Source of the DNA: Tritrichomonas foetus
Taxonomy: Eukaryota > Parabasalia > Tritrichomonadida > Tritrichomonadidae
Direction of reading: 5' to 3'
Assembly (NCBI GenBank): GCA_001839685.1
Contig: MLAK01000627.1
Span: 1 to 64,000, forward strand
DNA: 64,000 nt
Positions within the stretch are counted from its first letter, which is position 1; every line of letters starts with the position of its first letter. A program made the position numbers and the translations under genes. Below are positions 23,909 through 47,142 of this stretch, one piece after another. The notes beneath the pieces were generated by a model. That model was not told where the DNA came from, ran no database searches, and was given only the letters and a program-made list of their open reading frames with translations.

Positions 23909-24460
23909 TCACTGTGCGCGACCCTCGACAGTCTCAGCCAGCCAGTCAAAGGCATTTTTGATTCCATCTCCTTTCAATGCGCTTGTTGGCGCAATCATCC
24001 ATGTTCTGTCTAAGATTTGATCAAGTTCGAGTTTGCTGCTGATTTCTTCGGCTGTCATTGCTTCGGGAAGATCCTGCTTATTGGCCATAATTAAGAGTGG
24101 AACATTTTTCAGCTCTTCTTCACTGAGGAGGGAATTCAATTCATCTCTGCATAGATCCATTCGCTCGCGGTCGTTCGAATCGATCACGAAAACGATGCCA
24201 TCGGTCGATTTGTAGTAAAGGCGCCAAAACGGTCGAAGTTGGTGCTGACCACCGAGATCCCAAATATGCATTGTTAATTTCCCGAAAGTGACTTTTTCGA
24301 TGTTGAAAGCGACGGTTGGTGCAACATTTTCAACATATTGGTTAAGCGAAAGACGATATAAAATTGTGGTTTTGCCGGCAGAATCCAAACCTAAGATAAG
24401 AATTCTGACTTGTTTGGATCCAGAGAACCAGTTCATAACAGATGAGATAATTCCTCCCAT
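23909..24460 (-). CDS. ARL1-like ARF-family GTPase
   Basis: 183 aa, the family's normal length. Gly2 in MGGIISS is the expected myristoylation site. G1 is GLDSAGKT (residues 24-31), switch I has the PTVAFN form of the usual PTxGFN, switch II has WDLGGQ, and G4 is NKQD. G5 is the TSALKGDG loop. The N-terminal MGG, the ILILGLD and ILYRL strips and the ending FDWLAETVEGRAQ are closest to ARL1, which recruits GRIP-domain tethers and adaptors to the trans-Golgi. The switch-I Gly-to-Ala change is unusual, because this Gly is almost invariant in ARFs, though its neighbours are intact. Assignment within the family (ARL1 versus ARF) needs a tree. Confidence 0.9.
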   Translation of the reverse strand: MGGIISSVMNWFSGSKQVRILILGLDSAGKTTILYRLSLNQYVENVAPTVAFNIEKVTFGKLTMHIWDLGGQHQLRPFWRLYYKSTDGIVFVIDSNDRERMDLCRDELNSLLSEEELKNVPLLIMANKQDLPEAMTAEEISSKLELDQILDRTWMIAPTSALKGDGIKNAFDWLAETVEGRAQ

Positions 24461-46569: not shown

Positions 46570-47128
46570 TTACTTGATTGCTTGGACAAGCCATTTAAGA
46601 CCATCATCAAGTCCACTTCCGGTGATGGCTGAGCATCCTTGAATTTGCCATGGGTGGTCCCTGATCTTGTGGAGGTCGAGGGCGACTGTAACCTGATCAG
46701 CTGGAAGAGCTGTAGCGAGATCCTGCTTGTTGGCGAAAATAAGAACTGGAACGTTGGCCAATTTTGGATCGGCCAAAAGACTAGTTAATTCGAGGGAGGT
46801 TTCTTCAAGACGTGGTTCATCCGCACAGTCGACCACCCAGACGAGGGCATCTGTATTCTCGTAGTAGTTATCCCAGTATTGACGAATAGCCTTCTGGCCT
46901 CCGATATCCCATACGTTGAACTTGAAGGAATCGGCCTGGACTGTTTTCACGTTGAAGCCGCGTGTTGGTGATGTCTCAGTTGGATCTTCATTGCACAAAT
47001 TCTTTAAGATTGTTGTTTTTCCGGCATTATCGAGTCCAAGAAGTCTGAGTGTTAGAAAATAAAGCATACAATATCCTGCATTCGTGGTCGGAACGACGCA
47101 TTTGTTGAAGAAGACGAAGAAGACCCAT
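46570..47128 (-). CDS. ARL3: ARL3 GTPase, two exons with a 25-nt intron
   Basis: The spliced protein is 177 aa (exon 1: 47128-47070, 59 nt; exon 2: 47044-46570). Exon 1 starts [12 protein letters not shown], the ARL3 N-terminal amphipathic helix. Joining the exons puts the P-loop GLDNAGKT directly after the ...RILLL strand. Other motifs: [10 protein letters not shown] switch I, NVWDIGGQ switch [20 protein letters not shown]. Read without splicing, the frame has no ATG at the proper place, loses the N-terminal helix and garbles the first strand. ARL3 releases lipidated cargo such as from UNC119 and PDE6D in cilia and flagella; Gly2 is not thought to be myristoylated in ARL3. It fits a flagellate. 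A TCACTT initiator sits 12 bases before the ATG. Confidence 0.92.
47045..47069 (-). other. 25-nt spliceosomal intron in ARL3
   Basis: On the minus strand the intron starts GTATGC at 47069, close to the GTAYGT 5' site of trichomonads, and ends TCTAACACTCAG at 47045, which matches 10 of 12 bases of their fused branch-point/3' site ACTAACACACAG. Removal restores the ARL3 frame exactly between an Ile-Leu and Leu-Leu codon pair (phase 2). Confidence 0.92.
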
Positions 47129-47136
47129 TTTAAAAA

Positions 47137-47142
47137 AAGTGA
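47137..47142 (-). promoter_or_regulatory. Initiator (Inr) element of ARL3
   Basis: Minus-strand TCACTT with presumed +1 A at 47140, 12 bases before the ATG at 47128. It also supports exon 1 as the true 5' end. Confidence 0.55.

Follow-up and report, generated by a model that had tools for sequence, protein, structure and literature searches.

A 25-nt segment of the Tritrichomonas foetus ARL3 gene is very probably a short spliceosomal intron at a codon shared with an ARL3-like paralogue

Is the ARL3 gene in a 64,000-nucleotide stretch of Tritrichomonas foetus DNA (the window) broken, or is it interrupted by a spliceosomal intron of only 25 nt, as a preliminary description had proposed? The sequence evidence makes it almost certain that positions 47045–47069 are a real, very short intron of the U2 type. 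On the minus strand, from 47128 onward, the gene reads ATGGGTCTTC...AGGATATT, then GTATGCTTTATTTTCTAACACTCAG (47069–47045), then ACTTCTTGGACTCGATAATGCC..., and ends with a stop codon at 46570 (Table 1). When exons of 59 and 475 nt are joined, the product is an ARL3 of 177 aa whose alignment with solved ARL3 proteins begins at residue 1; the intron splits a leucine codon after its second base, three residues ahead of the first P-loop glycine. The Pfam Arf profile matched the spliced protein with 232.2 bits from profile position 3, versus 216.4 bits from position 19 for the unspliced one, in agreement with the earlier claim that the gene read directly lacks a correct start and that excision yields full-length ARL3. 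The best solved match was PDB 4goj (ARL3, presumably the human protein; query residues 1–174, 233.6 bits), compared with 212.7 bits for the best ARL2, and ARL3 was the best full-length match among Arf-family proteins. The named close relatives among the best 120 of 2494 similar proteins were ARL3 of Histomonas (91% identical) and of T. vaginalis (81% over 177 aa), and because of these matches the host would be a parabasalid.

Table 1. Coordinates of the ARL3 locus in the window.
Feature	Position	Strand	Remarks
Possible initiator-like TCACT	47138..47142	-	just 5' of the ATG; read from sequence; we liken it to the trichomonad Inr consensus
ARL3 exon 1	47070..47128	-	59 nt; 19 residues and the first two bases of a Leu codon; N-terminus aligns with solved ARL3 proteins
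Intron GTATGCTTTATTTTCTAACACTCAG, 25 nt, phase 2	47045..47069	-	excision restores the frame; codon and phase match a 24-nt intron of an ARL3-like paralogue
5' splice site GTATGC	47064..47069	-	read from sequence; fits GYAYGY (PMC12316389, available part)
Fused branch site and 3' splice site TCTAACACTCAG	47045..47056	-	CTAAC 47051–47055; putative branch adenosine 47052, 7 nt before the exon
ARL3 exon 2	46570..47044	-	475 nt including stop; P-loop GLDNAGKT and remaining GTPase domain

When 1–60 nt were removed between the ATG and the P-loop, the frame was kept open in 1112 placements. Five of these deletions were GT...AG, and the 25-nt one alone restored the family sequence. A genome search (63,729,861 bases) with GTATGN{6,34}CTAACACNCAG gave three matches versus none in the reversed control, and one of the three was exactly the ARL3 intron. 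The preliminary observation is confirmed by these three results: the 177-aa product, the single family-restoring GT...AG excision and the 3 versus 0 motif matches. By itself the 12-mer TCTAACACTCAG was uninformative (two exact genome copies, in ARL3 and at the end of a Rab1-like short intron, versus one in the reversed control). A loose-consensus scan of the window, with 5 matches versus 18 in the reversed window, was not used as evidence.

Two further points of the preliminary description concern the supply of ARL3 protein. It had stated that intron retention kills the protein. This stood for translation from the MGLL start codon, whose unspliced frame stops after 33 codons, but not for the 165-aa frame that begins at an ATG inside the intron (47067), in frame with exon 2; translated from it, an ARL3 with a shorter N-terminus could persist even when the intron is retained. 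It had also considered that an ARL3 paralogue elsewhere might supply the protein, and none of the 150 (of 399) genome candidates scored proved to be a second ARL3 orthologue, the next Arf-family match being 50% identical. The window holds another Arf-family gene at 23909–24460, which is 41% identical to ARL3 and has no intron at the ARL3-intron codon.

We asked to which class of intron the segment belongs. With its GT...AG ends and an excision that restores a conserved protein, it fits a U2-type intron; its 25 nt lie within the roughly 23–28 nt of short (type B-like) trichomonad introns, and TCTAACACTCAG supplies their TCTAA branch site with T at –12. The strict T. vaginalis type B 3' motif, TCTAACH[1-2]AACAG, is not matched, C and T at –5 and –4 replacing A and A; CT at these positions is found in 4/18 longer-spacing candidates of the genome, the ARL3 intron included. 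We therefore file it as a type-B-like intron of another species, in the short trichomonad class in general only.

According to the available part of PMC12316389, T. vaginalis has 63 introns, 39 of type A (56–196 nt) and 24 of type B (23–25 nt), the corresponding numbers in T. stableri are 32 and 52, and in type B the first base of the branch motif is T. A correction to the preliminary description concerns the T that opens the 12-nt 3' motif of the ARL3 intron: it is no oddity but the rule in short trichomonad introns (PMC6260720 and PMC12316389, available parts). Compared with the type B introns of the two Trichomonas species as given in the same parts of these sources, the ARL3 intron is alike in length (23–25 and 23–28 nt), in its GT...AG ends, in the T before CTAAC, in the fusion of branch site and 3' splice site and in its early gene position and phase 2, which is common there; the host genes also overlap (small GTPase, LSM domain, PH domain). 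In contrast, its GTATGC fits GYAYGY rather than GTWYWD, and its ACTCAG end fits neither published T. vaginalis 3' motif. The statement that few eukaryotic introns are so short proved too strong, given the 24 type B introns of T. vaginalis and some ciliates: Paramecium and Nyctotherus have introns of about 25 bp only (PMC5014332, available part), similar to the ARL3 intron in length, by which alone they were compared, and different in that this is the ciliates' only class. By annotation, two Histomonas strains have 573 and 638 introns (PMC8529796, available part) and T. musculus has 2,500 intron-bearing genes (PMC11978803, available part). ARL3 is not named in the available main text of PMC12316389, in which Table 1 gives two type B, phase 2 genes only as 'small GTPase', so T. 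vaginalis may have an ARL3 intron as well. In the literature searched, which held few subscription journals and no supplementary tables, no article describing a parabasalid ARL3 intron came up.

A small GTPase gene with a similarly short intron is TvRab1a (25 nt; Deng et al., cited in the available parts of PMC6260720 and PMC12316389). Two Rab1-like genes of T. foetus (so named by eye; Pfam, Ras family) carry short introns just before the P-loop. That of the gene on contig C707 has 26 nt (GTACATATTCTTTTTCTAACACTCAG), the final 12 identical to those of the ARL3 intron, and that of the second gene (L042) has 23 nt and lies in the same place. Both are phase-1 introns whose distance to the first P-loop glycine is five residues, whereas the ARL3 intron is in phase 2 and three residues away.

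To what extent does the 63.7-Mb genome contain other introns of this kind? Three short-intron patterns gave 20, 14 and 49 sites versus 4, 2 and 8 in the reversed control (total 83 versus 14). Though the patterns allowed 22–30 nt, 74 of the 83 candidates measured 23–26 nt; the spacing from TCTAAY to CAG was two bases in 65 and three, as in ARL3, in 18. All sites of the 20- and 14-site patterns were submitted to a frame test, which was passed when an ATG-started frame was joined to at least 60 further codons. Exact excision passed at 20 of the 34 sites and retention at one, and after moving the excision's 3' end by –2, –1, +1 or +2 the test was passed by 2, 4, 3 and 5 sites, so that the controls overall ranged from 1 to 5 of 34. 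The 14 failures include loci, among them L033 and L063, with a second candidate intron nearby; others may be chance sites. At L035/L063 (G000:C724:16084-16262) two candidate short introns of 25 nt each lie near the gene start, and L033 (contig C224) apparently has two as well (24 and 23 nt), of which the 24-nt one, the first, may belong to the 5' UTR. Known domains were found across or beside the short-intron junction in Rab1-like, cyclophilin, LSM, ubiquitin-like, PH-domain kinase and NTF2-like proteins. The LSM and ubiquitin-like genes with short introns (L064, L065) are both of splicing-related kinds, the latter (Pfam, ubiquitin family) resembling, we presume, UBL5/Hub1. Other patterns were rejected: a TTTAAY branch site with GTATG was too noisy (29 sites versus 15 in the control), and ACTAACACACAG alone gave 17 sites versus 11. 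At 10 of these 17 ACTAACACACAG sites (L067–L083) a suitable GTATGY would give an intron of 95–188 nt (95–107 nt in seven; counted without a control), which hints at possible longer introns of type A as well.

The genome also holds U2 and a probable U6, snRNAs that such splicing would use. Two U2 snRNA copies scored 81.1 and 80.7 bits (branch-pairing GUAGUA; GUGUAGUAUCUGUUCU), and the probable U6 snRNA contains ACAGAGA and scored 40.8 bits, under the Rfam cut-off of 44. With a branch site that by eye can pair with U2, and with U2 and the below-cut-off U6 in the genome, the locus has the further marks of U2-type splicing. The U2 matches start with UUUGCACUC and the U6 match carries GAGUGCAAA near its 3' end (L084, L085, L086); nine complementary bases, found by eye, could form U2/U6 helix II. 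Probably, then, the ordinary spliceosome removes the ARL3 intron. GTATGC would be read by U6 and U1, and the GUAGUA of U2 would pair with TCTAAC except for its first base, leaving adenosine 47052, the second A of TAAC, bulged as the nucleophile of the CTAAC branch site. The AG 7 nt past 47052 would be the 3' splice site, which makes branch and acceptor one 12-nt block; a 7-nt branch-to-AG distance is called conserved for type A introns in the available part of PMC6260720. Splicing would join the N-terminal helix of ARL3, from exon 1, to the first strand and P-loop in exon 2, which would carry the whole nucleotide-binding domain.

We asked whether relatives are interrupted at the same codon. 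From the best 120 of the 2494 ARL3-similar proteins 24 were taken, 23 of them parabasalid-like (at least 75% identity). Fifteen of the 23 begin with MGLL and read through the site without an intron trace (two are 92–94% identical), and two start at MRRS and also read through it. The deposited Histomonas ARL3 (P0009) has 159 aa, starts at MILLGLDN and is without the N-terminal helix; this truncation may stem from a short intron that was missed or misplaced. The other five (P0015, P0016, P0017, P0019 and P0020) turn to unrelated residues exactly at LLGLDN. Within the genome, 12 Arf-family loci were examined, and an interruption at the ARL3-intron codon was found in L004 only, an ARL3-like paralogue on contig C535 with an MGG-type N-terminus. 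One intron of 24 nt lies directly behind its ATG and a second, also of 24 nt, at the codon and phase of the ARL3 intron. Its sister gene, L009, has the first intron only (23 nt). Positions 1426–1508 of L004 correspond to G000:C535:7725-7807, and its protein has a long charged C-terminal tail. Twenty of the 67 L004-similar proteins were examined: 12 read through, five start too late to tell, and three (P0126, P0136 and P0151) diverge exactly at the junction.

The five ARL3 and three paralogue rows, picked by that divergence, were examined for translated intron sequence. Arg or Ser stands at the junction in 8/8, as AG|N demands (binomial P 1.6e-7), and Asn two residues before it in 6/8, as TAAC NN CAG demands (binomial P 1.8e-6); both tests were chosen after the rows were seen and took the six-frame translation of the window as background. 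A same-codon intron in other parabasalid ARL3 genes, which the preliminary description had raised, is suggested by intron-like residues running up to that codon in some relatives' proteins. An intron of 23 nt would fit P0016 and P0017, whose residues before the junction are readable, in a shifted frame, as CRI plus two bases; for the other peptides several lengths fit. The uninterrupted rows, seen as protein sequences only, may come from intronless genes or from spliced sources. In a tree of 24 ARL3 rows (P0034, which is without the LLGLDN motif, P0022 and P0023 were left out) the window gene falls inside an 11-row group with Histomonas (97/93), and rows with an intron trace are mixed with uninterrupted ones. 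Forks are mostly weak, with 4/21 inner branches starred; this and the unseen DNA of the uninterrupted rows are why we claim no count of losses. A short spliceosomal intron in ARL3, as proposed, is accordingly the best reading of the locus, supported by frame, motif, relatives and snRNAs.

Two other readings of the 25 nt were weighed. They could be retained, with translation from the GT-ATG inside the intron giving the 165-aa ARL3 that lacks the N-terminal helix, either as the sole product or beside the full-length one. The ATG at 47067 has the frame for this, and among 10 GTATG introns (of 11 restoring the frame, L039 left out) an internal ATG is in frame in five, ARL3 being one; but five of ten barely exceeds the one third expected by chance. 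Moreover, a 23-nt intron that has no GTATG in frame could account for P0016 and P0017, so the in-frame internal ATG is probably not conserved, and the conserved ARL3 N-terminus encoded by exon 1 would not be expected to persist without a use. We consider retention very unlikely. A 25-nt insertion in a decayed ARL3 copy, or a mistake in assembly or sequencing, is conceivable, as this is one locus from one draft assembly (1064 contigs). However, the insert carries a complete splice-site block next to an intact exon 2, some relatives and the paralogue have an interruption at this junction too, and the same anatomy was found at 20 of the 34 loci tested, so that such an origin is extremely improbable.

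If the segment is an intron, how old is it? It could be ancestral in parabasalids, predating the split of ARL3 from the MGG-type paralogue, and have been kept at 23–25 nt in some lineages and lost elsewhere. We hold this only tentatively, at somewhat under even chances, on the codon and phase shared with L004 and the traces in eight proteins. If it is true, the shortest parabasalid introns are old and at stable positions rather than recent insertions. Alternatively, parallel insertion may have occurred at the same codon in ARL3 and the paralogue, in which case the many uninterrupted rows need no losses. The ARL3 intron is possibly old, and the shared codon and phase provide a position marker by which an ancient origin of the shortest introns could be tested.

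The ARL3 intron is a member of the known short, type-B-like trichomonad class; what seems new is its apparently conserved position. With it the class reaches beyond two Trichomonas species, into a lineage in which ARL3 clusters with that of Histomonas, and the 83 sites versus 14 in controls suggest that this genome may hold more short introns than T. vaginalis (24) or T. stableri (52). Judging from the motif mismatch, a filter built on T. vaginalis 3' motifs would miss the ARL3 intron, a practical hazard, and the deposited Histomonas ARL3 is already without its N-terminus. The interest of the finding lies in the codon and phase common to ARL3 and its paralogue, together with the apparent number of short introns in the genome.
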